The notes under the pieces: generated by a model
What the model was told of the DNA's origin: nothing
Databases searched by the model: none
The model's input: only the letters and a program-made list of their open reading frames with translations
Made by a program: the position numbers and the translations under genes
Shown here: piece by piece, positions 108-27,935 of the stretch
Numbering within the stretch: position 1 is the stretch's first letter
Layout: each line of letters starts with the position of its first letter
DNA from: a virus
Direction: 5' to 3' (one strand)
Length of the DNA: 34,096 nt
Virus record (IMG/VR): IMGVR_UViG_3300005518_000030
Location: 1 to 34,096 of that record

Positions 108-407
108 TCATGGACCAGCGAACCAGTCCACGCTGGTGACCAGCTGCACCACCTCGGCGAGCGGGCGGTTGCCCTTCTCGCTGTTGCACTTGCGGAGGCA
201 CACCGGACAGCCGGCCACGCCATGGATCGGCGCGAGGTTGCCGGGGTCGCGGCGTGCGCCGCCCTTGCTCGCGGGGTGGATGTGGTCGACCGCGTCGGAT
301 GCGCCGTGGCCGCAGACGATGCACACGTCCGACTCGCGCAGGATGCGGGCGCGTGTCTGTCGGTACTCGTAGCTGGTGAGTTCGCTGCGGTCGGTGGCCA
401 CGCTCAC
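108..407 (-). CDS. HNH endonuclease, cos-associated type
   Basis: A 99-residue HNH nuclease. It shows a paired zinc-binding CIVC motif, then DHIHP (the H of the betabeta-alpha-metal core), then NLAPIHG, and a second cysteine pair in CPVCLRKCN followed by the typical SEKG tail. Proteins of this kind (the HK97 gp74 family) assist the large terminase in cos cleavage. The gene is last in the minus-strand order, and across the joined window ends it precedes terS, which supports a packaging role. The start is GTG at 407; a second in-frame GTG at 401 has a better-spaced GGGG ribosome site and may be the true start. A homing function is possible, but the gene is not inserted in another gene. Confidence 0.87.
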   Translation of the reverse strand: MSVATDRSELTSYEYRQTRARILRESDVCIVCGHGASDAVDHIHPASKGGARRDPGNLAPIHGVAGCPVCLRKCNSEKGNRPLAEVVQLVTSVDWFAGP

Positions 408-970: not shown

Positions 971-1159
971 TCAAGCAGCCTTGCTCTGTTGCCGCTTGGC
1001 GAGCAGTGCGGCGACGTCCGAGACGGCGTACCAAGCCTGCCGGGGCGTGCCACCCGAGCGCTGCAGCTGGCCGCGATGGACGAGCAGGCGAACACCTCCG
1101 AGGGTGATGCCGAGCTGCTGCGCGGTCTGGTGTGCGGTGAGGTGGCCGGGCCGGATCAT
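971..1159 (-). CDS. small helix-turn-helix protein, excisionase-like
   Basis: A 62-residue protein made almost entirely of a MerR/excisionase-type HTH: LTAHQTAQQLGIT is the first helix pair, VRLLVHRGQLQ the recognition region, and RQAWYAVSDVAALLA the wing and last helix. I chose ATG at 1159 because GGAG lies six bases upstream; an ATG at 1171 is in frame but badly spaced. It is the last gene of the transfer-like operon, and the 199-bp gap before it holds the GAAACC repeats. It may bind those repeats, or act as a recombination directionality factor; neither is shown. Serine-integrase directionality factors are very varied, so the second idea is weak. Confidence 0.7.
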   Translation of the reverse strand: MIRPGHLTAHQTAQQLGITLGGVRLLVHRGQLQRSGGTPRQAWYAVSDVAALLAKRQQSKAA

Positions 1160-1220
1160 CTGCGACTCCATGCCCCCATGATGCGGCAGTGATGTCGGCT
1201 GCACAGGGTGTCTGGAGCAC

Positions 1221-1347
1221 GGGTTTCCCCGGGATTCCGGGCCTGTGCGGCGAGGCCCGAAACCCGAAACTGTGCAGCTCAGCCTCGATATCGGGGGCGA
1301 AACCGGTTTCGGGGTGAGGTGAAACCGCAGCCCCGTCCCGAAACCGG
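1221..1347. repeat. GAAACC repeat cluster, clt-like candidate
   Basis: Seven copies of GAAAC(C) lie in about 125 bp: 1222-1227 (reverse), 1259-1264, 1266-1270 (GAAAC only), 1299-1304, 1305-1310 (reverse), 1321-1326 and 1340-1345. Several extend to CCCGAAACC. The copies at 1298-1311 form the perfect palindrome CGAAACCGGTTTCG. The cluster starts 14 bp after the stop of the TraB-like gene. In Streptomyces plasmids the clt locus, a set of short repeats bound by the TraB C-terminal winged helix, lies near traB. A regulator operator or a second replication site is also possible. Confidence 0.6.
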
Positions 1348-1358
1348 CTCGACGGCCT

Positions 1359-3476
1359 CTACTCGGCGTCCTCGACGGTGGGCAGATCGGCGTAGCGCAG
1401 GCCCTTGGCGCCTCCGCAGCACTCCCTGATCGTGAGTTGCCGGGTGGACACCTTGAACGGCTTGAGGGCCGCGCTGAGCGCCGTGGACGACCCTGCGGCG
1501 TCCATGTCCAGCCACGGCTTGTACAGGTCCGGCCGCAGCCGGGCGAGGGCCTCGACAAGGCGGTGCGAGTGCACGGCCTCCACTCCGTCCGGCCATACGG
1601 CCCGCAGGTGGTCGACCACAGTCTCCACATCGAGGTCGACGACCTGTGCGCCGACGGACTGCCCGGTGAGCGTGCCGGCCGCGGTGCGCAGCGCCAGGGC
1701 GCGCTTGGCGATGTCCTCGGCTTCGGTCTGCTTGATGAACGCGGCGCGGACGGTGATGCCTTCGCGACCGCGGGCAAGGATGCCGGTGCCCTGCTCGTCG
1801 ATGCTGATGTCGGTGGCGCGCAGGCCGCGTTCGAAGGCGCTGGTGCCGAGCACGTTGTTGTTCGCCCTCCAGTCCATGACGGCCAGGCAGAGGCGTGTGC
1901 CGACCGAGCTGGACACCGACGTGGGCAGGGACGGGGCGTCGGGGTTCTGGGTGAGCAGGATGAGGATGATGCCGTAGGCGCGGGCCTTCTTGATCAGGCG
2001 GGTGGCCAGGGCCGCGGCCTCGTCCTTGTACTCGGCGTGGGTGAACAGCTCCTGCACCTCGTCGATGACGATGACGCGCGGGCCGAGGTTCTGCTCGGGG
2101 TACTTCTCGGCGAGCGCGCGGGTGACCTTGCGGCCCTCGGGCACCTCGGAGGCGGGCAGGGAGCGCACGAACGCGGCGCGGCGCTGGTACTCGGCGATCC
2201 CGGAGCGCATGCCGCCCAGGGCGGCCTCAAGGTCTTCGTCCTCGTCGCCGGACACGTAGCGGTGGCAGATCGGCTTGACGGAGTCGAGGTCGCCGGATCC
2301 CTTGAGCTCGTAGATCCAGAGTTCGGCGGTGGGGTCGAGGGCGACGCCGAGGACGATGGCGAGCGCGCAGGACGTCTTGCCGGAGCCGGGGATGCCTCCG
2401 ACCAGCAGGTTTGAGTACATGAGGGTGATCTCGACGAGGTTGCCGCGCGGGTCGAAGCCGTAGGGCAGGGGCTCGTACACGTCGGCCTGGCCCTCTTTCA
2501 TGAGGGGCCACAGCTTGCGGCCGGCCTTGGCGGGGTCGCGCTGCGCCACCCACAGGACGAGGCGGCCGGGGTGGGCGGAGCGGTCGCCCTCGGGCCACAC
2601 GGTGCTGATGGGGCGGCGCATGGCGGCGGCGAGCGCGGCCCGCTTCTCCAGTACGGCGGTGGCTTCGATGCCGGGCGGGAGGTCGACCTCGGCGCGCCAT
2701 CCGGGGCCGTCGCGCATGACCTCGGAGGCGAACTCGACGCCGCGGCGCCCCTTCTTGCCCTCGATGCCGATGGCGGCGAGTGCGTCGAACACCTCGGTGG
2801 AGTCGAGGCGGCGCAGCACGTTGGTGGCCACGTAGCGGGTGATGAGGGGCTTGTCGCCCTTCTTGCCGGCCACGCCGACCAGGGCGGTGGCCGTGAGGGC
2901 GGCGGTGAGCGTCCAGCCGGGCACGAGGAACGCGCTGACCAGCGTGGTGATGCCGACGGCGGTGGCCACGGCCAGGGAGGCGATGCGCCGTGGCCGGACG
3001 CGGCGGGAGTGCTCGCGGGAGAGGGCGAGCCACGCTTCGATGTCCGCGGACGCGGCGGCCTTGGCCTCAACGGGCCGGGCCTCGGTGTCGGCGACCCACT
3101 TGCCCCAGCGGACTAGGAGGCGGCCAGCGCCGCGGGGTGCCCGGAGCAGCAGGCGGGTGAGGTACACGGGCGCACGCACGGCGTGGAAGCCGGTGACGTG
3201 GACGTAGTAGGACGCCGTCCAGCGGGCGGCGTCCACGAACTCGGCGGCGTTGCGCAGGAACGTGGGGATGACGGGCGGGGCTTCGGCGAGGTAGGCCTGC
3301 TTCTCGGCGATCCATGTACCTGCGGCTGGGGCTTCGTTGGGCGGGTCGACGGGTCGGGGCTCGGCGTTCTCGACGACTTCGATGATGGTCTCGGTCAGGG
3401 TGTCCTGCGCGTCCTTGAGGAGCGTGGGTGCGTCCGGGGGTGCGTCCTTGTGGAGCTGGACGACGTTGTTCGTCAT
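1359..3476 (-). CDS. FtsK/SpoIIIE-type DNA translocase, TraB-like
   Basis: A 705-residue hexameric motor of the FtsK/HerA class. Walker A is GGIPGSGKTS at about 360-369, Walker B is RVIVIDEVQ at about 467-475, and LLTQNP follows near 507. Two hydrophobic segments at about 163-203 would anchor it in the membrane. The C-terminus (about 615-700, with SSTALSAALKPF and the wing up to LRYADLP) resembles the winged helix of Streptomyces TraB/TraSA, which binds clt repeats and moves double-stranded DNA between hyphae. The length and layout fit that family better than chromosomal FtsK. The upstream Spd-like genes and downstream repeats support a transfer role. A role in prophage segregation is the alternative. 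Ribosome site AGGAAG precedes the ATG. Confidence 0.88.
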   Translation of the reverse strand: MTNNVVQLHKDAPPDAPTLLKDAQDTLTETIIEVVENAEPRPVDPPNEAPAAGTWIAEKQAYLAEAPPVIPTFLRNAAEFVDAARWTASYYVHVTGFHAVRAPVYLTRLLLRAPRGAGRLLVRWGKWVADTEARPVEAKAAASADIEAWLALSREHSRRVRPRRIASLAVATAVGITTLVSAFLVPGWTLTAALTATALVGVAGKKGDKPLITRYVATNVLRRLDSTEVFDALAAIGIEGKKGRRGVEFASEVMRDGPGWRAEVDLPPGIEATAVLEKRAALAAAMRRPISTVWPEGDRSAHPGRLVLWVAQRDPAKAGRKLWPLMKEGQADVYEPLPYGFDPRGNLVEITLMYSNLLVGGIPGSGKTSCALAIVLGVALDPTAELWIYELKGSGDLDSVKPICHRYVSGDEDEDLEAALGGMRSGIAEYQRRAAFVRSLPASEVPEGRKVTRALAEKYPEQNLGPRVIVIDEVQELFTHAEYKDEAAALATRLIKKARAYGIILILLTQNPDAPSLPTSVSSSVGTRLCLAVMDWRANNNVLGTSAFERGLRATDISIDEQGTGILARGREGITVRAAFIKQTEAEDIAKRALALRTAAGTLTGQSVGAQVVDLDVETVVDHLRAVWPDGVEAVHSHRLVEALARLRPDLYKPWLDMDAAGSSTALSAALKPFKVSTRQLTIRECCGGAKGLRYADLPTVEDAE

Positions 3477-3512
3477 GCTGGGGCTTCCTGCCTCTTGCTG
3501 GGGTACGGGAGG

Positions 3513-3555
3513 CCCGGGGACGGCGGCTGCTTGGCGGTAGGACGCCGTCCCCGGG
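3513..3555 (-). terminator. hairpin upstream of the TraB-like gene
   Basis: A 13-bp perfect stem (3513-3525 with 3543-3555, CCCGGGGACGGCG) has a 17-nt loop. It sits in the only real gap of the operon, between the 58-residue gene and the translocase gene. It could act as a partial terminator that limits translocase expression. Confidence 0.6.
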
Positions 3556-3561
3556 GCGTAG

Positions 3562-3738
3562 CTACTTCTTGTTCTTGCGGCGCTCCGCCCGTTTCTCGAT
3601 GCGCCTGACCTTGTTCTGCAGGTCGGTGAGGTCGACCGCGGGGCCGGCCAGGCCGCGCTTCGCCATCCGGGCGTGCAGGGCGACGAGGTGCAGCTGCTCG
3701 CCGCGCGTGAAGTCGCTGAAGCTGAGGTCGTCGGCCAT
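3562..3738 (-). CDS. small basic coiled protein, unknown
   Basis: A 58-residue protein starting MADDLSFSDFTRGEQLHL. The C-terminal half is a charged helix ending RRIEKRAERRKNKK. I do not recognise it. The ATG at 3738 is chosen because AAAGGG lies upstream and longer forms run into the preceding gene; the preceding gene stops 2 bp upstream of this start. It sits directly before the TraB-like gene in the coupled operon, so a minor role in transfer, such as a DNA-binding or Spd-type helper, is possible but not shown. Confidence 0.65.
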   Translation of the reverse strand: MADDLSFSDFTRGEQLHLVALHARMAKRGLAGPAVDLTDLQNKVRRIEKRAERRKNKK

Positions 3739-3740
3739 GG

Positions 3741-4058
3741 TCAGTTGCCCTTTCGGAAGTCGTTGAGCATGGAGCGGAGCACGAGCAGGCACGCGGTCGC
3801 GGCGATCGCTCCGACGGCGACGGCGATGGCAAGCAGGGCTGCGGCCATGGCGAGTGCGGTGACCGCGCCGGCTCCGACGATGCCGAGCACCACATAGCTG
3901 GCGGGGATTCGCCGTGGTGCCCGGGCGGCCGGCTGCGGGACGGGCTGCTGCTGGGTGGCCTGCTGGGTGGCGAGGACAGCGGCGACGATCCGGACGACGT
4001 CCGTGTTCGCGGCGGCGTCTCTGACCGCGGCTTCGGCTTTGTCGAGGGCATCACTCAT
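3741..4058 (-). CDS. small membrane protein, Spd-like candidate
   Basis: A 105-residue protein. The first half is soluble, helical and Gln/Pro-rich (MSDALDKAEAAVRDAAANTD, then a QQATQQQPVPQP linker). The second half has two closely packed membrane helices (ASYVVLGIVGAG to AATACLLVLRS) and a short basic tail. Its ATG overlaps the stop of the preceding gene (ATGA at 4055-4058). Streptomyces plasmids carry several small unrelated membrane Spd proteins next to traB that are needed for spread along the mycelium. The position and topology fit, but sequence kinship is not proven. Confidence 0.68.
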   Translation of the reverse strand: MSDALDKAEAAVRDAAANTDVVRIVAAVLATQQATQQQPVPQPAARAPRRIPASYVVLGIVGAGAVTALAMAAALLAIAVAVGAIAATACLLVLRSMLNDFRKGN

Positions 4059-4234
4059 GCCGCCCACCCCCGGATGCGGCGGGTGATCCGCGGCCAGGCC
4101 CAGATGCCGACGGCGGCCACGATGACGGCGGGCTGCGAGATGACCGCGGCGACCACGCCCAGGACGACTGCGAGCAGCGCCGGGTAGGCGACGAGGAGAC
4201 CGAGGATCGCTCCGAAGATCAGACGCAGCATCAT
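4055..4234 (-). CDS. 59-residue membrane protein, Spd-like candidate
   Basis: A very hydrophobic protein of 59 residues: MMLRLIFGAILGLLVAYPAL, then a second helix ending in VGIWAWPRITRRIRGW with a basic, aromatic tail. It probably forms two membrane helices joined by a short turn. Start and stop overlap both neighbours through ATGA (4231-4234 and 4055-4058), so it is translated together with them. The function is unknown; the company of TraB-like and DUF2637-like proteins suggests a membrane part of a transfer or spread system. Confidence 0.68.
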   Translation of the reverse strand: MMLRLIFGAILGLLVAYPALLAVVLGVVAAVISQPAVIVAAVGIWAWPRITRRIRGWAA

Positions 4235-4905
4235 GTCCGGGCCTCCTGGGGGAGCTTGTCGGGGTGGAAGAGGTTGTGTCCGCGGGGCGTCTTCTCGTGG
4301 ACTTCGAGGCGTCCGTCGGCGACCCAGCTGCGGATGGTGGAGGGGTCGACGCCGTACCGGTCGGCGACGTCCTTGGACGTGAGTAGGACGGGCGGAGGCG
4401 GGGGAGCGTCCTCGGTGTCCTGGCCCGTCCCGGGTTCGAGCTCCCGCGTCTCGTCGGTGTCCTCCTCGTCGTCGCGGTCGAGGGTGTACTCGACGGGCTC
4501 CGGGACGCGGGGCGTCTGCTCGGGGACGGGCGGGACGGTGGCGGGCGGGGTGGCGTCCCGTGGCGTCTGCCTGGCGAGCGCGTGCGTCCGCCACAGGCTG
4601 ATCGGTACGAGCAGTGAGACGACGGTGACGAGGTCGAGGCTCACCTTGATGACGCCTGCCTCCAGCGCGTGGGCGGCGACCTGGGCGGCGCCCATGAGGG
4701 CGAGGGACAGGGCGATGTCGAACGCCCGGAACCAGCGCAGCGCGGCGATCACGTAGCAGTCGAGGGCGAGCGGCAGCATGACCGCGATGGGCGGCTTGGC
4801 GCCGAGGCGGCGGGCGAGTTCGTACTCGGCGGTCGCGGTGAAGGCGATGCCGGCGGCGAGTGAGCCTCTGCGTACCCAGGTGCCGACCTGGTTGAGGTTG
4901 CTCAC
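4231..4905 (-). CDS. DUF2637/SpdB-like membrane protein with C-terminal HTH
   Basis: A 224-residue protein in two parts. Residues 1 to about 120 form a four-helix membrane domain (SLAAGIAFTATAEYELARRL; PIAVMLPLALDCYVIAALRW; IALSLALMGAAQVAAHALE; LVTVVSLLVPISLW), resembling the DUF2637 proteins common beside traB in actinomycete plasmids, AICEs and some phages. A Pro/acidic linker (TPPATVPPVPEQ to DDEEDTDETRELE) leads to a MerR-like HTH (LTSKDVADRYGVDPSTIRSW VADGRLEV). This layout would tether a DNA-binding domain to the membrane. The start is GTG, overlapping the upstream stop (GTGA). Confidence 0.75.
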   Translation of the reverse strand: MSNLNQVGTWVRRGSLAAGIAFTATAEYELARRLGAKPPIAVMLPLALDCYVIAALRWFRAFDIALSLALMGAAQVAAHALEAGVIKVSLDLVTVVSLLVPISLWRTHALARQTPRDATPPATVPPVPEQTPRVPEPVEYTLDRDDEEDTDETRELEPGTGQDTEDAPPPPPVLLTSKDVADRYGVDPSTIRSWVADGRLEVHEKTPRGHNLFHPDKLPQEART

Positions 4906-5267
4906 GCGGTGCCCCCGGCGAGGATCTCGGCGAGCTGACGCCCGAGTGCGCGCAACTGCTCGGCGGCGGCCTCAAGGTCGGCGGCGAGCTGCTCGACCTC
5001 GTCCGGGGTGTGCGTGCCGGTGATGTCCTGGACCTCGATGTACAGGCCGATGGTCCGGTCGACGCCTGAGAACGGGGCCTGGGTGAGGAAGGCCTTGAAC
5101 ATCTCGCGGCCGTCGGGGGCGATTACGTGCTCCGGGCCGTCGTGGGAGATGTCGGCCTTGTACCCGGCACGCTCGTCGGGGTGGCCAGCGCACCAGTCGG
5201 GCTCGGGGATCTCCAGGGGCTTGGTGACGAAGACGTTCACGGTCGCGGTGCGGGGCTCGGTGCTCAC
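4902..5267 (-). CDS. DUF6907-like protein
   Basis: A 121-residue protein with the layout of the DUF6907 family, which is common in Streptomyces and its mobile elements: a basic beta-strand start (TATVNVFVTKPL), PDWCAGHPDE, ISHDGPEH, a beta-rich middle (IGLYIEVQDI), and a helical end (EVEQLAADLEAAAEQLRALG RQLAEIL). The biochemical role of the family is unknown. It starts with GTG, overlapping the upstream stop. A second protein of similar plan lies at 11422-11979. Presence in the transfer-like operon suggests co-regulation rather than a known function. Confidence 0.7.
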   Translation of the reverse strand: MSTEPRTATVNVFVTKPLEIPEPDWCAGHPDERAGYKADISHDGPEHVIAPDGREMFKAFLTQAPFSGVDRTIGLYIEVQDITGTHTPDEVEQLAADLEAAAEQLRALGRQLAEILAGGTA

Positions 5268-5572
5268 CGGCGCTCACCTCGCTCGTCGGCGAGGAATGCG
5301 GCGATGGCGGGGAAGTGGGCGTCGACGGAGCGGCGGACGGCCTCGTTCTCGTCGACGGGCTCGGCGTCGAGGGCGCGGAGCAGCAGGCGCAGGGCCTCGC
5401 GGAGGGAGAGGACGCTGTCGCTGTCGAGCAGCTGCTGGGCGACGCGGATAGCGACCTGGAGGTCGGTGGGCTCGCGCAGCTGGTCGCGGACGCGGTCGGC
5501 GGCTTTCCCGTAGAGGGGTTCGCGGATGCTGGAACTTGCGGGCGCGTCGGGGCGCGCGAAAAGATCGGCCAT
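5264..5572 (-). CDS. first gene of transfer-like operon, unknown
   Basis: A 102-residue, mostly helical, acidic protein (MADLFARPDAPASSSIREPL, then long helices VRDQLREPTDLQVAIRVAQQ and LSLREALRLLLRALDAE). I chose ATG at 5572 because of the strong AAGGAGACGGCT ribosome site; the longer frame to 5632 lacks one. No family is recognised. As the promoter-proximal gene of the operon it lies 79 bp from the GntR-type operator centred near 5659. The downstream gene overlaps it by four bases. Confidence 0.66.
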   Translation of the reverse strand: MADLFARPDAPASSSIREPLYGKAADRVRDQLREPTDLQVAIRVAQQLLDSDSVLSLREALRLLLRALDAEPVDENEAVRRSVDAHFPAIAAFLADERGERR

Positions 5573-5650
5573 AGCCGTCTCCTTGGTTGAGTCAGGGAGT
5601 TCGGTCAGGGCCTCGTTCGGTGTTGGTAGCACCGGCGGGGCCCGTCTTCA

Positions 5651-5667
5651 TTTGTGAGTACAGATTA
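5651..5667. promoter_or_regulatory. GntR operator copy before the transfer-like operon
   Basis: TTTGTGAGTACAGATTA matches the reverse strand of 15714-15729 in 15 of 16 bases (TTGTGAGTACAGATAA there). It lies in the 149-bp gap upstream of the operon starting at 5572. On the minus strand a TAATCT hexamer (5662-5667) overlaps it and could be a -10, although I see no good -35. This links the operon to the GntR regulator at 15814. Confidence 0.72.
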
Positions 5668-5721
5668 GAGCTTGCCACAGTATCTGGCGGTCCGTATAGG
5701 TCTGTTACGGAATCAGCGCGT

Positions 5722-8240: not shown

Positions 8241-8457
8241 ACCTCGTCCCGGCGGCTCGCGCTTCCGAGGCCCTTGTCTGTGACCTCGTCCTCGTCCCAC
8301 CTAAAGAAGTGGGACGAGGGACGAGGTGTCACGACCTCGTCCGGGACGAGGTGGGACGAGGTGGGACGAGGTCATTTACGAGGGATAGCGATCATGGTCG
8401 GTAGCCAAAGGCGGACAGAGTGGGTCAATCGACCTCGTCCGGGGGTCGGGACGAGGT
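8241..8457. repeat. GGGACGAGGT iteron array, origin candidate
   Basis: Eleven copies, exact or one base short, of the 10-bp unit GGGACGAGGT in both orientations. Forward copies lie at 8311, 8318, 8343, 8353, 8363 and 8448, with 8343-8372 being three exact tandem units. Reverse copies (ACCTCGTCCC) lie at 8241, 8283, 8290, 8334 and 8432. Inverted pairs form hairpins: an 11-bp stem at 8290-8319 with an A-rich 8-nt loop, and ACCTCGTCCGGGACGAGGT at 8334-8352. A locally less GC-rich patch follows at 8373-8411. The array fills the 243-bp gap next to the helicase-like gene and enters its 3' end. It looks like a replication origin; an operator cluster is the alternative. Confidence 0.68.
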
Positions 8458-9633
8458 CAACCGGCCTCCTTCCTCGACCGGATTGCCCGCTTCTGTACCT
8501 GCGGACGGGATGCTGTGGAGGACGGCGCCGCGCGCGCCTCGCTCGGTGCCGATCCGGCCCTCATCAACGAGGGCGGCAACGGCCTGCCGGATGTCCGCCG
8601 CACGGCCGCTCACGCGGTCCTCGATGCCCTTGCCCGTCAGCGGCTCCCGGGCGCCCGTCAGGGCATCGAGCACCTTCCGCTTGAGGGCGTTGATGCGCCG
8701 CTGCTCCTCGTCGGCCTCGCGGTCCTCCTCGTCGCGCTGGATGGGCGCGTACAGGTGAGCCTCGGCGAACTCGGCGGACTCGGACTTGACGACGAGGTCG
8801 GCGTACCAGTGCATGCCGCTGGAGTGCGACAGTCCGTTCTTACGGATCTGGCCGGGCCGGTCCTTGGCGACGCGGATGGTGGACTTGCCGGTGACACCGA
8901 TGCCGAAGGGGCGCCGGTTCTCCAGCATGTACATCACGCCATTGAGGCCGTTGAGCTTGTGGACGCCGCCGATGCTGTACCGGCCGCGGTTCTCCGCCGA
9001 CTTGACGACGTGGTCGAGGGTGACGACCGCAGCCCCGGAGTTCATGAGCGGGCGAAGCAGCCGGCGGCCGAACTTGGCGACGTCGGTGTTGTCCTTCAGC
9101 TCCAGTCCGAAGAGGCTCATGCCCTCGGTCACGCCGTCGACGATGGCGAGGGTCGGGCTGTGCTCCAGCACCATCGCAAGGTCGATGAGGTCGATGTCGC
9201 TGGGGCTGTTCTCGGGCCGGACGTAGTGGAAGCGCTCCAGCACGTCGTCGGGGCGCGCGCCGAGGCAGAGCAGCCGGCCGACCACGCCGCCCGCATCGTC
9301 CTCGAAGTCGAGGTACAGGACGTGGTTGCCGTCGTTGATCTCCTGCAGGCAGGCGATGAGCGCGAACCACGTCTTGCCCGCCTCGGACTCGCTGGCGACG
9401 CTGTTCATCCGGCCCGGATAGAACAGGCCGACACCGTCGTCCCGGCGCCCCACCGAGGGCTGCGGCGGCCGGTACGAGCCGTCGAGGACCGACCGCAGGT
9501 CTTGGGCCGCCCACGTGCGCGGCGCAGGCTCCTTCTCGGCGGCTGCGCCATCCACGTCTTGCCAGTCGACGGGCGGCTCCTCGCCGTCCGGGCCGAAGTA
9601 GGCGTCCATGGCCTGGTCGAAGTCGGTCGTCAC
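8425..9633 (-). CDS. RecA-fold replicative ATPase, RepA/helicase-like
   Basis: A 402-residue RecA-fold ATPase of the AAA_25/RepA type. The P-loop SESEAGKT is at about 81-88, LYLDFEDD near 106-113, and a Walker B-like LAIVDG near 162-167, followed by VVTLDHVVKS and SIGGVHKLNG, which resemble the later motifs of hexameric RepA helicases. A C-terminal winged helix (about 320-380: LKRKVLDALTGAREPLTGKG, IRQAVAALVDEGRIG) may bind DNA. It starts with GTG at 9633, overlapping the primase stop (GTGA). Its last codons lie inside the iteron array, as in replicons whose initiator gene abuts the origin. It probably acts as helicase loader or helicase with the Prim-Pol. Confidence 0.82.
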   Translation of the reverse strand: MTTDFDQAMDAYFGPDGEEPPVDWQDVDGAAAEKEPAPRTWAAQDLRSVLDGSYRPPQPSVGRRDDGVGLFYPGRMNSVASESEAGKTWFALIACLQEINDGNHVLYLDFEDDAGGVVGRLLCLGARPDDVLERFHYVRPENSPSDIDLIDLAMVLEHSPTLAIVDGVTEGMSLFGLELKDNTDVAKFGRRLLRPLMNSGAAVVTLDHVVKSAENRGRYSIGGVHKLNGLNGVMYMLENRRPFGIGVTGKSTIRVAKDRPGQIRKNGLSHSSGMHWYADLVVKSESAEFAEAHLYAPIQRDEEDREADEEQRRINALKRKVLDALTGAREPLTGKGIEDRVSGRAADIRQAVAALVDEGRIGTERGARGAVLHSIPSAGTEAGNPVEEGGRLTSSRPPDEVD

Positions 9634-10556
9634 GCCACCCACCTCCGGTCGCTGGGACGCGTGGCGGCACTGTCGAACGACGCCCGCGCCTCGGAGTCGG
9701 TGAGGCCTACGGCGGACGCTGCGGACAGCAGACCCATCTCGGCCTCGGCGAGGTCGATGAGGTTCTGCTCGGCCAGCTCGTGCGCACGGCAGGCCGCGAA
9801 GAAGAAGGCGTTGTTGCGGTGGCCCTCGTGTGCGTCCATCACGTGCTGGACCAGGTCAGCCACCGTCCACAGACGGCCGCCGCCGGGCCGCTGCTGGCGC
9901 CGCTCCTGGGTGGGAAAGCGGTGCCGCGGTGTGGCGCGCGGCGGCGGGAGCTGGCGACGCCGCTTACGCGGCAGAAGCGCCTCGGGCCAGTCGACGGTCG
10001 GCGCGATGTACGAACCGTCGCCTACCCACTGGTAGCGGCCGCCGGAGGAGTGCACGGACGGGGCGAGCAGGATGTAGCCGTTGTGCTTGAAGTCGATGCC
10101 GGGCCCGCCCAGGCCGGGCAGGTCGAAGTCGGGGGAGCGGTACAGCTGGTGCAGCCCGCCGCCGCCGGTGAGTTGCATGGTGGTGCCGGGCAGCACGCCG
10201 ACGCGCTCCTCGAGGGCGCGGTACGACTCGTTGCCGCCGTTGCGCGGGTCGATGTCGACGACGGCCCAGCCGTTCAGCTTGCACGGGGCGCCGATGTTCG
10301 CGTCGGGTTCCTCGCGCCACCACTTGCGGACGAGGTCGAGGTCGGTGGTGGCTGCCCAGAAGCCGTGACAGGTGGGGACGCCGCACTGGCAGTTCTCGGG
10401 CCGGTGCTTGACGTAGAGGCTGCTCTGCCGGTCGCAGCGCGGGCAGTTGGCGTAGGGGGTCTTGTTCCGCCGGACGCGGAAGACCTTGATGCCCGCCTCG
10501 GCATAGGCCTCGGCGGCGGCCGGGAGCTTGGCGGGGATACGGAGGCCGACGGTCAC
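9630..10556 (-). CDS. bifunctional DNA primase/polymerase (Prim-Pol)
   Basis: A 308-residue archaeo-eukaryotic-type Prim-Pol. The N-terminal domain has the metal-binding DID at about 101-103 (WAVVDIDPRNGG), GGGLHQLY at about 133-140, and DFKHNGYILLAPS near 155. Cysteines at about 38, 41, 56, 58 and 63 with His64 (CPRC, CQCGVPTCH) look like an inserted zinc knot. After about residue 215 a short helical region follows (DLVQHVMDAHEGHRNNAFFF AACRA), like the alpha-helical C-terminal domains of plasmid primases. Prim-Pols are found in corynephages, actinophages and some AICEs, where they initiate or prime replication. GTG start at 10556; the ribosome site is weak. Confidence 0.92.
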   Translation of the reverse strand: MTVGLRIPAKLPAAAEAYAEAGIKVFRVRRNKTPYANCPRCDRQSSLYVKHRPENCQCGVPTCHGFWAATTDLDLVRKWWREEPDANIGAPCKLNGWAVVDIDPRNGGNESYRALEERVGVLPGTTMQLTGGGGLHQLYRSPDFDLPGLGGPGIDFKHNGYILLAPSVHSSGGRYQWVGDGSYIAPTVDWPEALLPRKRRRQLPPPRATPRHRFPTQERRQQRPGGGRLWTVADLVQHVMDAHEGHRNNAFFFAACRAHELAEQNLIDLAEAEMGLLSAASAVGLTDSEARASFDSAATRPSDRRWVA

Positions 10557-13261: not shown

Positions 13262-14761
13262 CTACCGTTTCCACGCGAACACGACCGCGTCGTAGTCGAA
13301 ATACCCCCCGTCGGGCATGCGCCCTTGTCGCGGCGTCAGCAGCGTTACTGTGACGAGCGCCCGCAGCACCGAGCGTTTCCGGTCGAGTTCCAGCGCCTTC
13401 CACGCCTTCCGGACGTCCGGCGCTCCCACCAGGTCGACGAGCGGGTCCCGTGTCGCGGCGCGGGCCAGCTGCTGCGTGATGCCCTCCAGCTGGCCGCGGG
13501 CCGCGTCGGTGCCCTCGGTGAAGGCGGTCAGTTCGATCTGCCCCGCGCCGAACATGCCGCCCAAGTCCTTCATGCGCTGCCGGGCCTTTTCCGCCTCCGC
13601 CTGGAGGCCGGCCACGTCCACGTCGTCCGGGCCGGGCAGGAGAAGGTCGTGCGCGTCGTCGCGTGACAGCCGCTCGACGATGACGTCCTCGACGTACTGG
13701 TCGACGATCTCGGCGCGTCGACCGCCGCCATGCCCGGTCGGGCAGCGGTAGCTCGGATACTGGCGGCCGCCGGATTGCGTAACGGTCATGCCGGTGCCGC
13801 AGTTGTCGCGCCCGCACAGGTAGATCATCGAGCCGACCCATTTCGGCTGAGCACCGCGGTTCAGTACGCGCCCGGGGTCCTTCAGGATCGCCACGACCGC
13901 CCGGTACTTCGCCTCGTCGACGATCGGCTCCCACTTGCCGCGGCCGACCTCCTCGCCGCGATAGACCGCGATCCCGGCATTCCTGGGGCGCATCAGCATG
14001 TCCCGCATGTCCTGGTGAGTGACCGCGTTCCCGCGGGTCGTGGTGATCCCCTTGTCGCGGCACCACTTCACCAGCGACCGGATCGATCCGCCGGACAGGA
14101 TCTCGTCCGTCCACAAGCGGAGCGCTTCAGCCTCTTCGGGGACAGCCTTCAGCATGTCGAGTTCGGGCGCCTCGACTTCGTCGCCGGTCTTCCGGTCGAC
14201 CTTCTTGCGCACCTCGCCGGTAGGCACGCCCCAGCCGAACGGGCGGACTCCGCCTGCCCACTCGCCGGCCATGGCCTTCTGCTGCCGGGCGCGGGCCACC
14301 CTGTGCCCTTTGTGCTCGGACTCCTGGCGGGCGACGGCGCCGAGGATGCGCGCGGTCATCCGCCCGGACGGTGTGGCGAGGTCGATGGTTCCGGCCTGCA
14401 CGGTGTGCGTGGAGATACCGCGCCGGTCGGACAGGTCGATGTACTCCTCCAGTTCGACGATGGAGCGGGTGAGCCGGTCGGTGTGCCAGACGATGACGAC
14501 GGTGGCCTTGCCCTCGTCGAGGTCGGCGAGCATGCGCCGGTAGTCCTTGCGCAGCTTCCCTGAGAAGGCGCTCACGTCGTTGTCGGTGTATACCTCGACG
14601 ACCTGCCAGCCGTTACGTTCCGCGAGGGCTTCGCAGTCCTCGCGCTGCCGGTCGACGCCGAGGCCCGCGCCGGTGCGGTCCTGGCTGATGCGGCAGTAGA
14701 TGACGGCGCGGGTCTTCCCGCCTGCGGCAACGTCAACGGCGGAGCGAAGAGTTGGGCTCAT
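13262..14761 (-). CDS. int: large serine integrase
   Basis: A 499-residue serine recombinase. The catalytic serine is S26 in YCRISQDRTG, with the supporting WHTDRLTRS near 92-100 and the long helix ending in ARQESEHKGHRV. A recombinase domain follows (GVRPFGWGVP; GITTTRGNAVTHQDMRDMLM), then a zinc ribbon (C316, C321, C340, H344) and a coiled-coil segment (about 385-425), the part that controls integration versus excision. It is somewhat shorter than phiC31 Int. It would insert the phage at a host attB through the attP candidate just upstream (14780-14837). It is convergent with the repressor gene, whose stop lies 7 bp away. Confidence 0.95.
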   Translation of the reverse strand: MSPTLRSAVDVAAGGKTRAVIYCRISQDRTGAGLGVDRQREDCEALAERNGWQVVEVYTDNDVSAFSGKLRKDYRRMLADLDEGKATVVIVWHTDRLTRSIVELEEYIDLSDRRGISTHTVQAGTIDLATPSGRMTARILGAVARQESEHKGHRVARARQQKAMAGEWAGGVRPFGWGVPTGEVRKKVDRKTGDEVEAPELDMLKAVPEEAEALRLWTDEILSGGSIRSLVKWCRDKGITTTRGNAVTHQDMRDMLMRPRNAGIAVYRGEEVGRGKWEPIVDEAKYRAVVAILKDPGRVLNRGAQPKWVGSMIYLCGRDNCGTGMTVTQSGGRQYPSYRCPTGHGGGRRAEIVDQYVEDVIVERLSRDDAHDLLLPGPDDVDVAGLQAEAEKARQRMKDLGGMFGAGQIELTAFTEGTDAARGQLEGITQQLARAATRDPLVDLVGAPDVRKAWKALELDRKRSVLRALVTVTLLTPRQGRMPDGGYFDYDAVVFAWKR

Positions 14762-16637: not shown

Positions 16638-17288
16638 CTACAGCCGCCGGTACGAGGCGGTCATGGTGAGCGTGGCAACGCCGAGCAGTCCGCTCTGCGG
16701 GTCCGGGGTGGGGCTCGGGTCGCCCGCGCCGTCGCGGCGGCAGACAAGGGCGTCCGGGTCGTAGGACGGGGCCTGCAGGCTGTAGCCGTCAGGGCAGTTG
16801 GGTCCGGCCGGCCCCTGCTCGCCGCGCTCGCCCTGGGGCCCGGGCGGTCCCGTAATAGACTCCCCCGGTTCGCCCTGCGGCCCCTGCGCGCCGGTGGCAC
16901 CGACCGCCCCCGAGGCGCCAGGCGACGGCGTGATCGTCGGCGCAGCCTTGCCTGGATCGCCCTTGTCGCCCTTGGGCCCCGGCGGTCCGGGGATGGGCAC
17001 CGGCACTTCCGCGCGGTCCGGCAAGTTCTTGACCGCCTTGGTCGGATCCGGAGCGGCAGGAGTGCCGCCCTTGGCCGTGATCTGAGCGCGCAGTACGCGC
17101 ACGTCCCCGGCGAGCGTGGACACGGCCTCGCCGCGCAAGTCGGCCTCGGCGGCGAGCTGGTCGGCGCGCGACGCTTCGGCCTGGACTCGGACGTACACGA
17201 GGAGCACGGCGCCCGTGAGGGCCAGCAGGAAGGCCAGGAGGGCGAGGGGCTTCCACCGCCGGGCGAGCACACTCTGGGTGCGCGTCAT
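16638..17288 (-). CDS. membrane-anchored collagen-like protein
   Basis: A 216-residue protein. An N-terminal basic segment and one membrane helix ([20 protein letters not shown]) lead to a coiled coil ([25 protein letters not shown]), then Gly-X-Y collagen-type repeats in two blocks ([28 protein letters not shown] and [17 protein letters not shown]), and a C-terminal part with two cysteines ([14 protein letters not shown]). Collagen-like proteins are frequent in actinophages, mostly as tail proteins; this one has a membrane anchor and sits in the lysis region, which is less usual. It ends at the late terminator. The role is unknown: envelope disruption, or a surface protein displayed late in infection. 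Confidence 0.75.
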
Positions 17289-17551
17289 GGTGTCCCCCCA
17301 AGCTGGGTGACGAGCAGCCGCAGCCGCGCGACTTCCAGTTCAAGAACCTCGACGCGCTGCTCGGCCTTCGCCTGGTCCGCCTCGGCCTTGTCGCGTTCGG
17401 CGACGAGGCGCTGGGTGAGGTTGTCGTAGCCGGTCAATGCCGTGCCCTCCTGCTGGGCGCGCCCTGCGACCTTGGAGCCGTACATGGCTGCCGCCCCCGC
17501 CACGACGGCGCTGCCGATCACGCCAAGGGCCGTGACGAGGGCGCCGTCCAT
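17285..17551 (-). CDS. membrane protein with coiled coil, lysis-region
   Basis: An 88-residue protein with one N-terminal membrane helix ([18 protein letters not shown]) and a long coiled coil ([30 protein letters not shown]). Its stop overlaps the ATG of the collagen-like gene (ATGA). The place after endolysin and holin and the topology suggest a lysis accessory, such as a second holin-like or spanin-like protein. This is inferred from position only; the family is common in Streptomyces phages but, as far as I know, untested. Confidence 0.66.
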
Positions 17552-17582
17552 GTCACCTCCAGGCCGCGCTCATAGGGCAGGG

Positions 17583-17807
17583 TCAGGACCCCGACGGGGT
17601 GCGCGGCGTGTGGTTGGCGTTCCAGCCAGACAGGAACGTGATGGCGGCCGGGACGATCGCAATGACGATCGGCTGCAGCCAGGAGGGGAGCGGCTTCAGC
17701 AGGCTGTCGTCAGCAACGACGCCGTTGAGGACGGCGATGACGAGGGAGACGACGAAGGTTGCCGACGTGGCCGCCTTCACCTTCGCCTCGACGGGCGCAC
17801 TGGCCAT
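17583..17807 (-). CDS. holin
   Basis: A 74-residue protein with two membrane helices (TFVVSLVIAVLNGVV and QPIVIAIVPAAITFLSGW) separated by a short loop with charged residues, and a hydrophilic tail. It lies 25 bp downstream of the endolysin gene with its own GGAG ribosome site. Size, two-helix topology and place fit the actinophage holin type that opens the membrane for lysis. Confidence 0.78.
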   Translation of the reverse strand: MASAPVEAKVKAATSATFVVSLVIAVLNGVVADDSLLKPLPSWLQPIVIAIVPAAITFLSGWNANHTPRTPSGS

Positions 17808-17832
17808 GGGGGTTCTCCGTTCAGTGAAGGGG

Positions 17833-18690
17833 TCAGACGTTGGGGACGTGGAGCTTGTCCCAGCTGGACTTGCCGGGGATGCCGTCGGCATCGCTGCCCG
17901 CGTAGCCGAGGTGGCGCTGCCAGGCCGCGTAGGAGCGCTCGTCGCCCGAGCCCCATACGTCGGCGTTGGCGTCGGACTGGTAGCGGCCGCAGCCCACGGC
18001 GACGAGCCGCTTGTGCATCGCCGCGATGATCGGCGACCTGCGGCCAGCCTTGAAGAAAGAGGCGCCAGGGAACGGCTCGTAGGATGGCTTGGCCGACGTG
18101 GCGGTGGTGCCGACGAACTCCGGCCAGCTACCGGGGTCCTGGTGGTCGTTCTCCGGGACCTGGGAGTGCCCGTACCAGCCGCCTTTTGACTCCCACACGG
18201 TCTCGCTGCGGTGCGGGGTGAAGTCGACAGGGCGCCCCATGGGCCACGCGTTGGCGACTCCCCAGGAGTGCACCCAGGCCTGCAAGTCCGCCCACCCCTT
18301 GCACGGAGTGTCCGTGAGCTTGGCGTACACGCGGTCGCCGACACGGCAGTACGGGAAGAAGAGCGCTTCCACCTGGATGACCACGGAGCCCGCGCGGTTG
18401 GTGCGCGTCCCTCCGGCCTTGTCGACCAGCGACTTTGAGCGCGAGTTGGCGGGCACGAACTGCGTGAAGTGGCCCTCGAACGGGTCCCAAAGGACATGCG
18501 GGGCGACCCCCGAGCCGCCGCCCGCGAAGTACGAGCGGAGCGCGGTGTAGGAGACCAGGTCGACCGGCTTGGCCGCGGTCGCGTTCTTGTCCCACGTGAT
18601 GTGAGCAATGGCCTTGGCGGGGCCGCCGTCCGTCGGGGCGTGGTCCCCGACGTCCAGCCGGGCGGCGCCCGGCATCCAGAGGTCAGGCAT
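17833..18690 (-). CDS. endolysin: amidase with peptidoglycan-binding domain
   Basis: A 285-residue two-domain lysin. The N-terminal domain (about 25-195) has the PGRP/amidase_2 layout: AIAHITWDKN, PHVLWDPFEG, SVVIQVEALF, and the late metal ligand region YGHSQVPENDHQDPG. This should cut the amide bond between N-acetylmuramic acid and L-alanine. The C-terminal domain (about 220-285: SPIIAAMHKRLVAVGCGRYQ; WGSGDERSYAAWQRHLGY; DGIPGKSSWDKL) is a peptidoglycan-binding domain. No signal peptide is present, so export depends on the holin encoded just downstream. Confidence 0.9.
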   Translation of the reverse strand: MPDLWMPGAARLDVGDHAPTDGGPAKAIAHITWDKNATAAKPVDLVSYTALRSYFAGGGSGVAPHVLWDPFEGHFTQFVPANSRSKSLVDKAGGTRTNRAGSVVIQVEALFFPYCRVGDRVYAKLTDTPCKGWADLQAWVHSWGVANAWPMGRPVDFTPHRSETVWESKGGWYGHSQVPENDHQDPGSWPEFVGTTATSAKPSYEPFPGASFFKAGRRSPIIAAMHKRLVAVGCGRYQSDANADVWGSGDERSYAAWQRHLGYAGSDADGIPGKSSWDKLHVPNV

Positions 18691-18711
18691 GGTGCTCCAG
18701 ATATGAAGAAA

Positions 18712-18734
18712 GCCCCGGCCTGACGGCTCGGGGC
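18712..18734 (-). terminator. hairpin between tail-tip and lysis genes
   Basis: GCCCCG-GCC pairs with GGC-T-CGGGGC (9 bp, one bulged T, TGAC loop). It lies between the 81-residue protein gene and the endolysin gene and may be a partial terminator that separates tail and lysis expression. Confidence 0.5.
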
Positions 18735-18751
18735 GTTGAGTGGGGCGGGGG

Positions 18752-18997
18752 TTACGCGGTGGGCGTCATCTGCTCCGAGTAGGAGTACGAGCGCGTCGCC
18801 GACACCAGCCGGAAGGCCCCCGATGCGGTGACCGTGTCGACGAACTTCTGCACGATGGCCGGGACTTCGGGGGCGTCCGGGTTGTCGGTGGTCGCCTCCA
18901 CGGTGAAGGTGACCGGGTAGTCCCCGGCGGTGTCCACGCTGTTGACGATGACCTTCCACTGGCTTGCGGTCGGTCCTTCGGGGATGCCCAGAGGCAT
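18752..18997 (-). CDS. small tail-tip region protein, unknown
   Basis: An 81-residue beta-rich protein (SQWKVIVNSVDTAGDYPVTF TVEATTDNP; VPAIVQKFVDTVTASGAFRL VSATRSYSYSE). No family is recognised with confidence. It follows the tail-fibre-like genes, so a minor structural role is likely. Start ATG at 18997. Confidence 0.63.
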   Translation of the reverse strand: MPLGIPEGPTASQWKVIVNSVDTAGDYPVTFTVEATTDNPDAPEVPAIVQKFVDTVTASGAFRLVSATRSYSYSEQMTPTA

Positions 18998-19011
18998 GGC
19001 AGGTCAGCTCC

Positions 19012-19410
19012 CTATCCGTCGATGATGAACCCAATGTGCAGGCGCAGGTTGCTGCCGGAGGCGATGGTGTCGCTGGCAGTGCGCAGCGTGCAGATGCCAT
19101 CGGTGCCGATGACCCAGCCGCCCTCTGCGGCGCCGTTGTCCCACGTGCCGTTGATCGTTCCGGCGGTAGGGCGCCACCCTGCCGGGACGGTGGCGATCTG
19201 GGTGTCGGTGATATTGCCGGTGGTGGCGGTGATGGCGGCACCCGAGCGGTTCATGTACAGGTCCAGCACGACCATGTTGCCGACGCGGTAGCCAGAGAAC
19301 GAGTTCACGGCGAACCCGGTCGCGGCCGTCAGGCCGGCCGTGGTCGTGGTGGGCGAGTCGTTGTTGAGCCGGTCGGCGGTGATCTGCATCCCGGCAAGCC
19401 ATGCGGTCAT
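19012..19410 (-). CDS. putative minor tail/fibre protein
   Basis: A 132-residue beta-rich protein. The N-terminus MTAWLAGMQITADRLNNDSP is a pattern often seen in short baseplate or fibre proteins of Streptomyces phages, and the rest (YRVGNMVVLDLYMNRSG; GNITDTQIATVPAGWRPTAG; SNLRLHIGFIIDG) resembles C-terminal carbohydrate-facing domains of fibres. It is next to the large lectin-domain tail protein. A receptor-binding role is plausible but unproven. Confidence 0.68.
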   Translation of the reverse strand: MTAWLAGMQITADRLNNDSPTTTTAGLTAATGFAVNSFSGYRVGNMVVLDLYMNRSGAAITATTGNITDTQIATVPAGWRPTAGTINGTWDNGAAEGGWVIGTDGICTLRTASDTIASGSNLRLHIGFIIDG

Positions 19411-19420
19411 CGTCGGCCTC

Positions 19421-22400
19421 CTACATCGCCACGTAGACGGGGTTGGCGAGGCTGATGGCCTGGCCGACGGCGTGGGACTTGACCACGCCGTTGATGCTGC
19501 GCGTGACGGTGAACGTCTGCGGGTTGATGACGTTGAAGTCGTCGTAGGACGCCGTCACCGGCAGCGTGTTCGTGTTCGCGCTGGACAGGATGGAGCGCAC
19601 CCCCACCGATCCGGCGGCCGCGAGGCTGCTGTCCGTGACGGTGGCCTGCCAGGCCACCGGCTCGGTCCCGGACACCGGCCACGCCTTGGCGCGCAGCGTC
19701 GTCCCGATCACCTGAAGACGGATCTTGAAGAAGGTGCCCGCGGCGTGCGTTCCCGGCACGGTCACTGTCGTCAGGTCCGTCTGCGCGCCGGCCACCCGCT
19801 TCTGGATGACCAGGGTGAGCGTCTGGTCGGTGTTGAAGGCCAGACGCCCGTAGTAGAGGTTGTTGCCGTCTGTGTACCGGGCCATGGGTCCCACGTAGTG
19901 CGGGCCGCCGGTCGCCAGGGCGGACGTGGCCACGCTCACCACGACGTCCACGTCCGCCGACGGGGCCGCGATCACGGTGTACCGGCTCACGTTGACCGAG
20001 GTGAGGCTGTGCGTGCCCACGCTGCCGTTCACTGCGTACTCCGAAGCCGCGCCGCCCGAGTTCGTCCAGGAGCCGCCCACGGTCGCCGTACCCCACCCGT
20101 TGGAGACGGTGCGGGTGAATGTGTCCTGGACCGCGCTGGTGCACGCGGTCACCCGCATCACCTCCCCGCCGGTGCGTACGTCGAAGGGGAACTCGGTGGG
20201 GTATGTGCCCGAGTCGATCCAGCGGGCCAGGCCGGTGGTGAAGACGTCCACCCCGGTCTCGGTCGAGTCGAGTGCCTCGGCGAGCTGGCATCCGCCTGTG
20301 TCGGCGCGTCCGTAGGTGGCGGAGCCGACGATGCCCGCGTCCCACGGCTGGCCGGGCACGCAGTTGAACGTGATGGTCCAGGCGTCCGGTCCGGCGGTCT
20401 CGGTGTAGCCAGCCACCAGGACGTCGACGGCGTCCGGGCCGTGGTCGGCGGGCAGGTTCGTGAGCCGGATCTTGTCGCCGACGTCGAGGCGCAGGATGTC
20501 GTCGATGAGGGCGAACACGCGGGTGTTGGCCAGGTTGAGGGTGATGCGGGTGTAGCGCACTCCGGCGTAGGTGCCGAGGTGCACGCGCATCCCGGCGACC
20601 TGCCAGGCCTGGGCGTCCGTGTACAGGCTGTACGTGTACGACCGGTCGTAGCGGCCCACGCCGCCGTTCTCCGGGTCCTGGACGTTCAGGTCGCCGGTCT
20701 CCTGCACCACTCGGGCGGGCACGGAGCCGAACTCGCGCTGCACCGTGACGTCGTTCTCGGTGAGCTTGTCGTCGTCGACCGGCTTGAACGGCGGTGCGAG
20801 CAGCCCGGCGGAGTAGTCGAGGGTGAGCCCTGGGGGCTGGTTCCACAGCGTGGACTGTCCGCGGTGGATGACCTCGGCCCGGTCCCGGGCGTCGAGCAGG
20901 TAGCCGAAGTTGGTGTCGGAGGCCTCGTTCATGAGCTCCAGCAGCTTCTTCGACCCCTGGATGCCCATGGGCCGCTGAAAGGTCGACTCTCCTGCCACGG
21001 TGGCCGTGTAGCCGGATTCTGCGGCCAGGCGCACGATGCGGTCGCCGGCCTTCTCGCTCTGGAAGCCGGTGAGGGCGGCGTACATGTTCGCGGCCGAGGG
21101 TCCGGTGCCGTCCCAGTAGGTGATGAACCCCATCTGCTGGTCTGCCCCGTTGACGCCGCCGCCGGAGACCAGGGACCAGGACGCCGAGATGTCGCGTACC
21201 GCTTTGACGACCAGGCCCGACAGAGTGCCTGATCCGCGTGAGACGCCATCGACGTAGACGGCCCAGGTGGTGTCGGTCGCCCCCGGGTCCACGGTGAGGC
21301 GTAGGTGGTGGGGGTGGCCGTCGTCGAGGATGCCAGCTGAGGAGATGGAGGTGAGCAGGATGGAGCCGGACGTCGTCTCGCCGAGCAGGCCCCGGTAGAC
21401 GCTGATGGAGTTGGCGTTCTGGTCCACCAGCATCTGGAACCGAACGCGCTTGTCGGCGTCCGTGTACGCGCCCAGGTCGTTGATCTCGAAAAGGGGCGCG
21501 GAGACCTGCCCGCCGCCGGACATGAAGAAGTCCACCGACCAGGCCGAGGCCGCCGAGGTACTCACCGGCACCTTGCCCTTGATGATGCCGCTGGTCTCCG
21601 CCTTGAAGTTGACGACCTGTTCGACCCAGTCGGCGAGCCTGCCCGCCTGCCACTCCGGGACGGCGGTGCCCTGGGTGAGCTGGTACACCATGTCGGCTCC
21701 ACCGAGCAGGCTGGCGCCGCCCTGGGCGTTTGTCTGCTTGCCGTCGGTCAACGGCCAGCATTCGATCGGGTCGTGGGCCTTGATGTAGCGCAGCAGCGCG
21801 GAATCGGTGGGCTTGTTGCCCGCATCCATGCGCCGGGTGACGCCGGCCGGGGTGATGCTGACGTAGTTGTCGTTGCCCGACAGGTCCCTGGTGGGCGGCC
21901 AGGCGGGCACCTCACCGGACATGCGGATGAGCTTGTTGGTGAGGGCCGCGGTGCCCGCAACGGTCCACGTCTCGCCGGTGGCGCCGGTGAACGAGGTGCC
22001 GCCGGACGTTCCGGCGGCGGTGGCCATGTTCACCACCGTGGTCCCGGCGATGCCGTTGCGGAGCTGGAGGGCGAACACCTTGCCGTTCAGGGGGTTGTCG
22101 GTGAGGTTCGCGCAGTCCCCGACCTCGATGCCGGCGGTGCCGTCGAACACTGAGGTGGTCGCGGCGCCGATGATCGGGGCGCCGAGCAGGTGCCATTCGG
22201 TGTCGTTGACGGTGCGGCCGGTGTAGAAGCGCAGTTCGTATCCGCCGGCCCCGTTGTTGACGTCGAGGGTGACGCGCAGGGCGAGACGCTGCCCGTTGTA
22301 GGCCTTGAGGCCCTCGGTGGAGAACTGGACGATCCGGGATGCGAGTGTGCCGTCCGGGGACCAGTAGAAACTCGGCTGTCCGCTGGAGCCCATGAGCAGG

Positions 22401-22840: not shown

Positions 22841-22843
22841 GAC

Positions 22844-24946: not shown

Positions 24947-24976
24947 CGGCCCGCCTCCCTCCTGGGTAGCGGGCGG

Positions 24977-25539: not shown

Positions 25540-25551
25540 GGGTGTCCCCCC

Positions 25552-26061: not shown

Positions 26062-26471
26062 CAGGACGTCGCTCGGGTCACGGCCCCCGATGTCGGGAAG
26101 CCCATGCTGACGGTGGCCTCGTCGCCGACCGACCCGGTGATCGGGTTCCATCCCTTGATGAGGATGCTGCCCGTGTACTTCGGGTTGGTCGTCGAAGCGG
26201 CGCCCTGGTCGGCGCGCACCTCGAACGGCACGACCGTGCCCAGCAGCGGCCACATGATGGCGTCCAGCTGGGAGGCGGCGAAGTCCTGGAGGAACTCGCA
26301 GCCCAGCTCGCCGGACTTCAGGCCGCCGATGACTTCCTTCCAGCCGAGGCTGGCGTAGTTGGTGACGTCCTTCTCCTCGACCTCGACGGTGAGCTCCGCC
26401 TTCTTCGTGAAGGTGTTCAGGACGTTGGAGTTGATGGACAGGTACTCGGCAAGCAGAACCATCTTCGGCAC
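26061..26471 (-). CDS. tail-tube-like protein, shorter paralogue
   Basis: A 136-residue protein similar to the one at 26544-27284. Shared block: VEEKDVTNYASLGWKEVIGG LKSGELGCEF here against VDVKDATNYGSQGYKEVVGG there, and DAIMWPLLG against DAIWSQLGG. It ends with a strand-rich part (YTGSILIKGWNPITGSVGDE). The fold fits phage tail tube proteins (lambda V-like). Two related genes in a row suggest a duplication, with the short one either a second tube or tail-tip ring protein. Confidence 0.74.
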   Translation of the reverse strand: MPKMVLLAEYLSINSNVLNTFTKKAELTVEVEEKDVTNYASLGWKEVIGGLKSGELGCEFLQDFAASQLDAIMWPLLGTVVPFEVRADQGAASTTNPKYTGSILIKGWNPITGSVGDEATVSMGFPTSGAVTRATS

Positions 26472-27926: not shown

Positions 27927-27935
27927 CGTCGCCCC

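Follow-up and report, generated by a model that had tools for sequence, protein, structure and literature searches.

A temperate phage of Streptomyces type appears to carry, beside the genes for its virus particle, a module for the transfer of double-stranded DNA (dsDNA) of the kind found in plasmids and in actinomycete integrative and conjugative elements (AICEs). The genome is the IMG/VR virus record IMGVR_UViG_3300005518_000030, a record with no host assembly behind it, whose full length of 34,096 bp was analyzed (hereafter the window). The module is composed of a minus-strand operon ending in a gene for a 705-aa TraB-like motor, and of a cluster of short repeats directly behind this gene, which is proposed here as the cis-acting transfer locus (clt). 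Judged from sequence comparison, we give a probability of roughly 0.68 to the reading that this is a working TraB/clt module in a packaged temperate phage and that it moves the phage DNA through hyphae.

The TraB-Like Motor

The 705-aa protein possesses a Walker A (GGIPGSGKT) and a Walker B (VIVIDE) motif. A hydrophobic segment (residues 165-188) is located N-terminal to the motor, where the structural model has helices at 146-184 and 188-203, and the predicted C-terminal winged-helix domain includes a beta-hairpin wing at 679-694. The motor, membrane anchor and winged helix that the original prediction had named were thus recovered. The motor fold is that of FtsK (PDB 2iut, Z 31.6, 3.5 Å over 361 residues; also 6t8b), and FtsK in the PDB was matched by sequence as well (9e-7); FtsK-type sequence and fold do not decide between motor families. 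The traB gene is under strong purifying selection, with a ratio of nonsynonymous to synonymous substitution (dN/dS) of 0.17-0.22.

The kinship of the motor was examined in a tree of 168 motors, several deep branches of which are weakly supported. The window motor falls in a clade of 57 members (support 1.0) that come almost exclusively from phages or prophages, and the sister clade (support 0.994) is made up of 91 sequences, mostly from AICE-type loci. The TraB proteins of pSVH1 and pZL1 are placed near these clades, with the phage L178 close by, and the chromosomal FtsK and EccC of S. scabiei lie outside the TraB group. In blastp, the 705-aa protein matched pSVH1 TraB at 2e-35 and S. scabiei FtsK at 5e-5, and the TraB profile scored 393 bits for pSVH1 against 42 bits for chromosomal FtsK. 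Because of its position in the tree and the repeat cluster behind its gene, assignment of the motor to the TraB type, and not to packaging or chromosomal FtsK motors, is supported, in line with what had been predicted.

Among the named carriers in the phage-rich clade are Streptomyces scabiei 87.22 and Actinomadura species. Several genome loci that at first looked free of phage genes turned out to encode tape-measure or tail proteins on the opposite strand; unlike in the window, the late phage genes are opposite in strand in the TraB loci L055 (16442-20785), L057 (17644-21420) and L072 (15608-19576). To explain the tree, TraB must have passed between phage and non-phage carriers at least six times. 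This TraB was absent from 50,697 public phage records, among which the sole match was to Gilgamesh, which like the window is a Streptomyces phage with an FtsK-like gene, but whose translocase is 27% identical over half of the protein and stands outside the TraB group, on a branch with weak support.

The Repeat Cluster Behind traB

In nearly every close relative, the traB stop is directly followed by a non-coding stretch of about 100 bp that is rich in short repeats. This cluster is a new element, which had escaped the original prediction. All four copies of GGTTTCG in the 34 kb window are located at 1258-1345, in one 88-bp site, and the probability that four copies fall so close by chance is near 1e-7. 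When 242 loci were scanned for clusters of four or more GTTTCG, 71 were found, 69 of them directly after the traB stop; one of the other two is the window's own copy in another locus, and one lies about 550 bp behind traB in L056. No such cluster was found in 56 terminase loci without TraB or in the AICE-type clade. In 75 loci of the phage-rich clade, 252 of 337 GGTTTCG fall in the first 140 bp past the traB stop, where 2.6 would be expected, and a 27-bp core, searched in 2.9 million viral contigs, was present in 35 of them at one site each, all 35 carrying this traB. A 7-mer test, which is weak per locus, gave p<0.05 in 118 of 181 loci, some contigs being doubled under two locus ids; the clade-wide repeat counts, which also hold some contigs twice, are the stronger evidence.

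The inverted repeat has three pairs with compensating changes, mostly between two variants, and may have a structural role. A dispersed KOPS-like motif was ruled out: the orientation motifs of a chromosomal FtsK are scattered over the replicon, and the repeat found here forms a single cluster confined to the 88-bp site. An intrinsic terminator was also considered, and no match was obtained at the cluster.

Two plasmid systems offer a comparison. The TraB of pSVH1 (NC_007431) has an FtsK-type motor with 31% identity over 370 residues to that of the window, and spdB2 and small open reading frames (ORFs) precede its gene. As a positive control, its known repeat GACCCGGA was found to start just past the traB stop; pSVH1 TraB reportedly reads 8-bp repeats. 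pSVH1 differs from the window in being a plasmid, of 12.6 kb, which has a rep of its own, another repeat and no phage genes. In pWTY27, the footprinted clt spans the end of traA and 159 bp beyond it and contains direct and inverted repeats of 7 bp; it likewise adjoins the 3' end of the tra gene (PMC3583192). The pWTY27 repeat is TGACACC, unlike that of the window, and pWTY27 is a theta plasmid without phage genes. The pSVH1 and pWTY27 repeats occupy the same place behind the tra gene, and in position, size and architecture the candidate clt therefore corresponds to clt loci already described.

Covariation of Repeat and Wing

In the family at large, changes of the repeat go along with changes in the wing of TraB's C-terminal domain. 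AICE-type relatives have other repeats at the same place behind traB, including CTAGACCTAG, CTAGCGCTAG and CTATCGATAG, and 498 of 1615 CTAG in 98 AICE-type loci are within 160 bp behind traB, against 13 expected. The two repeat classes match the residue patterns QVWG..GKGANR and Q[VI]GRR..GK in 73 of 74 members. In phylogenetically independent pairs, taken from a tree built on the motor only, class and wing agreed in six of six (p 0.03, the lowest possible with six pairs). Recognition helix alpha-3 was at first assumed to carry specificity; the strongest correlation was found in the wing instead, where positions 684-687 and 690 of the model's beta-hairpin hold the most information on repeat class. 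Members of the phage clade retain their own wing (TRQLTIRECCGGAKG) and GTTTCG repeats even at 52% TraB identity (L042), whereas in Actinomadura members, whose motor is closer (64%) but whose wing is changed, the repeats are degenerate.

A Probable Packaged Phage Genome

The original prediction set the operon in a tailed-phage genome with a full siphovirus late region, a serine integrase, a single-stranded DNA-binding protein (SSB) and Prim-Pol, and this setting was upheld by PHROGs and Pfam matches (Table 1). The late region encodes the small and large terminase, portal, protease, capsid, tail terminator, major tail protein, tape measure, endolysin and a 1139-aa tail-associated protein (window 19421-22840), which in its C-terminal part matches a PHROG annotated as phosphodiesterase. 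Contig L002, which comes from a different sample and is 99% identical to the window, ends on the very same base as the window does, next to the HNH gene. In 17 other loci, the junction of this base with the small terminase is a single highly conserved sequence, CAACCCCGCGCCCAGCTTTTATTTTTCTCCCCCCGGG, and several other terminase contigs start within it (L147, L150 and L168). This is what a cos site cut by terminase would give. Because the contig ends fall in this cos-like sequence, the contig, from position 1 to 34096, is probably a linear packaged genome and more than a prophage relic, and the phage would be a temperate cos-type siphovirus of Streptomyces type. The nearest terminase in the same public phage records is only 33% identical, so the phage group is without a close relative there.

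The integrase, Prim-Pol/Rep and Tra modules by which an AICE is defined (Int plus Rep plus Tra, no capsid) are all present in the window, and Prim-Pol is found near TraB in many AICE-type loci. The full late region and the cos-like ends nevertheless set the window apart from AICEs, which by definition are not phages.

Table 1. Positions of the analyzed features in the window, with the evidence for each.
Feature	Position	Strand	Evidence
HNH endonuclease beside cos end	108..407	-	Pfam HNH E 2.5e-4
66-aa helix-turn-helix (HTH)-like protein between repeat cluster and HNH gene	971..1171	-	HTH_17 E 0.03 only
Candidate clt, GGTTTCG/GTTTCGG repeats, part inverted, part direct, directly after traB stop	1251..1348	-	alignment of 42 loci
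traB-like membrane-anchored dsDNA translocase, 705 aa, FtsK-type motor and C-terminal winged-helix domain	1359..3476	-	Pfam FtsK_SpoIIIE E 3e-7, above cut-off
Small basic protein, 58 aa	3562..3738	-	ORF; homologues adjoin traB in many loci
Membrane protein, 105 aa; candidate spread (Spd) protein by position only	3741..4058	-	hydropathy; homologues beside traB
Membrane protein, 59 aa; candidate Spd by position only	4055..4234	-	hydropathy; homologues
224-aa protein, four-helix membrane part and MerR/BldC-like HTH; divergent DUF2637/SpdB-like	4231..4905	-	HTH_17 E 5e-7
DUF6907 protein, 121 aa	4902..5267	-	Pfam PF21848 E 5e-25
102-aa protein, first of coupled group	5264..5572	-	ORF; homologues in relatives
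Replication pair AAA ATPase and Prim-Pol, of a type used by many AICEs	8425..10556	-	Pfam Prim-Pol E 6e-30
Serine integrase	13262..14761	-	Pfam Resolvase E 6e-34, Recombinase E 4e-11
Siphovirus late region: minor tail, endolysin, tail, tape measure, major tail, capsid, protease, portal, large and small terminase	16638..34074	-	PHROGs matches, homologues

Sister Phages and Possible Cassette Exchange

Related large terminases with at least 6 kb of upstream sequence were found in 33 phages, of which 13 have TraB and 20 have none in reach; the 13 TraBs come from several distinct lineages. In the TraB-less sisters that were examined, the repeats are lacking, and both terminase genes are kept along with the conserved cos sequence, which rules out the cluster as a packaging site. 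In L184, L203 and L205, for example, all neighbours are present, a 169-aa membrane protein (phrog_16379) stands in the place of traB, and no repeats were seen at the locus. This polytopic protein takes the same place in L135 and L180 (coordinates L184:8082-8588 and L205:6539-7048). The 66-aa HTH-like protein is common to phages with and without TraB. On gene content, TraB is apparently optional for the virion and brings its own repeats.

Exchange of TraB together with its repeats, as a single cassette, is suggested by L154, which pairs a 224-aa neighbour 76% identical to that of the window with a TraB only about 25% identical, followed by CCAGTGA repeats. L201 and L165 are, like L154, prophages with a distant TraB of about 25% identity, and repeats of the CCAGTGA type follow it in L201 too. 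Another TraB type (27-34% identity) is found with the same terminase family in L136, L166, L167 and L206, where AGGGAGG/GCCTCCC repeats follow. The TraB-less phage L144 still has GCTGTAGCTACAGC-type repeats behind the operon (7890-8330), perhaps a clt remaining after loss of traB.

Genes Upstream of traB

As predicted, seven coupled genes run on the minus strand from 5572 to 1359, and ORF analysis revealed a 4-bp overlap at four junctions. Among them, the DUF6907 protein and the small basic protein were as first described. A 185-aa protein at 11422-11979 resembles DUF6907 proteins by eye and is a possible second copy.

The prediction of a TraB-plus-Spd core held for TraB and only in part for Spd. 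For the 224-aa protein, the proposed DUF2637/SpdB-like nature was sought as direct DUF2637 or SpdB2 homology by Pfam and was not found, DUF2637 giving no match even at E 1; a profile built from the protein does pick up a DUF2637 protein of the Pseudonocardia phage-plasmid pPaSha2 (L047) at E 1e-9, and its predicted structure has four long helices (predicted template modelling score of 0.34, which is low). No common Pfam family is matched by pSVH1 SpdB2 and the 224-aa protein. The two very small proteins (59 and 105 aa) are membrane proteins by hydropathy, as had been claimed, with no detectable relatives among Spd proteins; the 105-aa protein has no family match above cut-off. Known Spd proteins are themselves highly diverse (PMC4170104).

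Related Elements

The 18.5 kb circular AICE of Streptomyces sp. NBC_00562 has a TraB 41% identical over 616 residues and shares Prim-Pol, an integrase and repeats behind traB with the window; it has DUF2637. Unlike in the window, capsid, tail and terminase genes are not annotated, and the repeats are of the CTATCGATAG/CTAG type. The Pseudonocardia phage-plasmids pPaSha2 (41.9 kb) and the P. broussonetiae plasmid (27.4 kb) combine phage structural genes, DUF2637 and this TraB family, but are circular plasmid records with a TraB 36-40% identical; CCTGACC repeats lie behind traB in the P. broussonetiae plasmid.

The plasmid-phage pZL12 is presented in PMC3583192 and PMC4487206 as a Streptomyces phage with conjugal transfer, and work cited in PMC3583192 makes this transfer dependent on a major tra gene. 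Like the window, pZL12 (phage ZL12, NC_013420) is a Streptomyces phage with an FtsK-like gene; unlike the window, it is a ParAB-partitioned plasmid of 90 kb. Membership of its gp071 in the same family was not detected, as the TraB profile gave no match (E<1) and blastp only E 0.02, and no comparable repeats were seen behind gp071. A dual life as virus and transferable DNA is already known from pZL12, and what is new here is the predicted loading site with a testable specificity rule.

Proposed Mechanism and Alternatives

After excision or injection, the phage DNA would be a circle carrying one clt. TraB, anchored in the membrane, would form an FtsK-like motor, and its C-terminal winged-helix domain would read the repeats at 1251-1348, so that the motor loads there. 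The double strand could then be pumped across a cross-wall or into a touching hypha with the assistance of the small membrane proteins, and spread would be completed when the serine integrase re-integrates the phage DNA. Loading and pumping are proposed because they are reported for pSVH1 TraB in work cited in PMC3583192 and PMC4170104. The suggestion of the original prediction, a prophage that might travel through the mycelium as DNA, is thus the reading with the best support.

Several points weigh against this reading. We infer the binding of the repeats by TraB, the movement of DNA, its direction and the stage of phage life concerned by analogy. The NCBIfam equivalog plasmid_TraB (NF041214) scored 22 of 800 bits, far under its curated cut-off; this equivalog is narrow, and its failure excludes that equivalog and not the wider TraB family. 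The Spd partners are barely recognisable, and the label of the small membrane proteins is weakly supported, by position and topology. The DUF6907 and 224-aa genes are also found in sister phages without TraB, and because of this both proteins may serve another role, for example regulation via the HTH. An exact cluster is missing from seven of 76 clade loci, in most of which the wing has diverged, and the repeat and wing classes were drawn after the data had been seen.

The same motor might serve vertical stability only, by pumping excised or freshly injected DNA into spores or from compartment to compartment within the same mycelium and so keeping lysogeny. A clt-loaded motor would do this equally well, a single loading site fits a small circular replicon, and the spd genes of pIJ101 and SLP2 affect segregational stability (PMC4170104). 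We regard this as unlikely, since the TraB relatives of known function (pSVH1 and pWTY27) transfer DNA between strains and a phage with a serine integrase for its integration has little need of help with segregation. It is quite improbable that an AICE or its remnant was captured by a prophage as a passenger with no present function. The interchange of TraB between phages and AICEs and the AICE-like replication pair would suit such a capture, but traB is under strong purifying selection, the repeat cluster keeps pace with the protein, the frames are open in nearly all relatives and the window has a single integrase.

The location of traB next to the HNH and both terminase genes in most relatives would suit a role in making virions, with TraB as the motor of packaging or injection and the repeats as a pac-like site. 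We consider this role highly improbable: TraB is missing from 20 of the 33 terminase-related phages, the examined TraB-less sisters do without repeats, and TraB is common to AICE-type loci where searches revealed no capsid genes.

Significance

Phages and conjugative elements are usually viewed as separate vehicles, and one element here seems to own both. We see an even chance of a broader picture, in which widespread cos-packaged phages of Streptomyces type have two routes of spread, by virions and by TraB/clt transfer of dsDNA, TraB and clt are traded with AICEs as a unit, and wing and repeat form a specificity code that also predicts the clt of many AICEs. A candidate loading site would thus be offered for many of these elements; for the archetype pSAM2, no clt had been described (PMC9513070). 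With a single predicted clt in each genome, the claim is open to a simple binding or mobilisation assay. If the transfer reading is true, viruses of this family may spread through the mycelium as bare DNA besides virus particles, and estimates of phage spread and host range based on plaques only would miss a prophage that crosses the mycelium without lysis.

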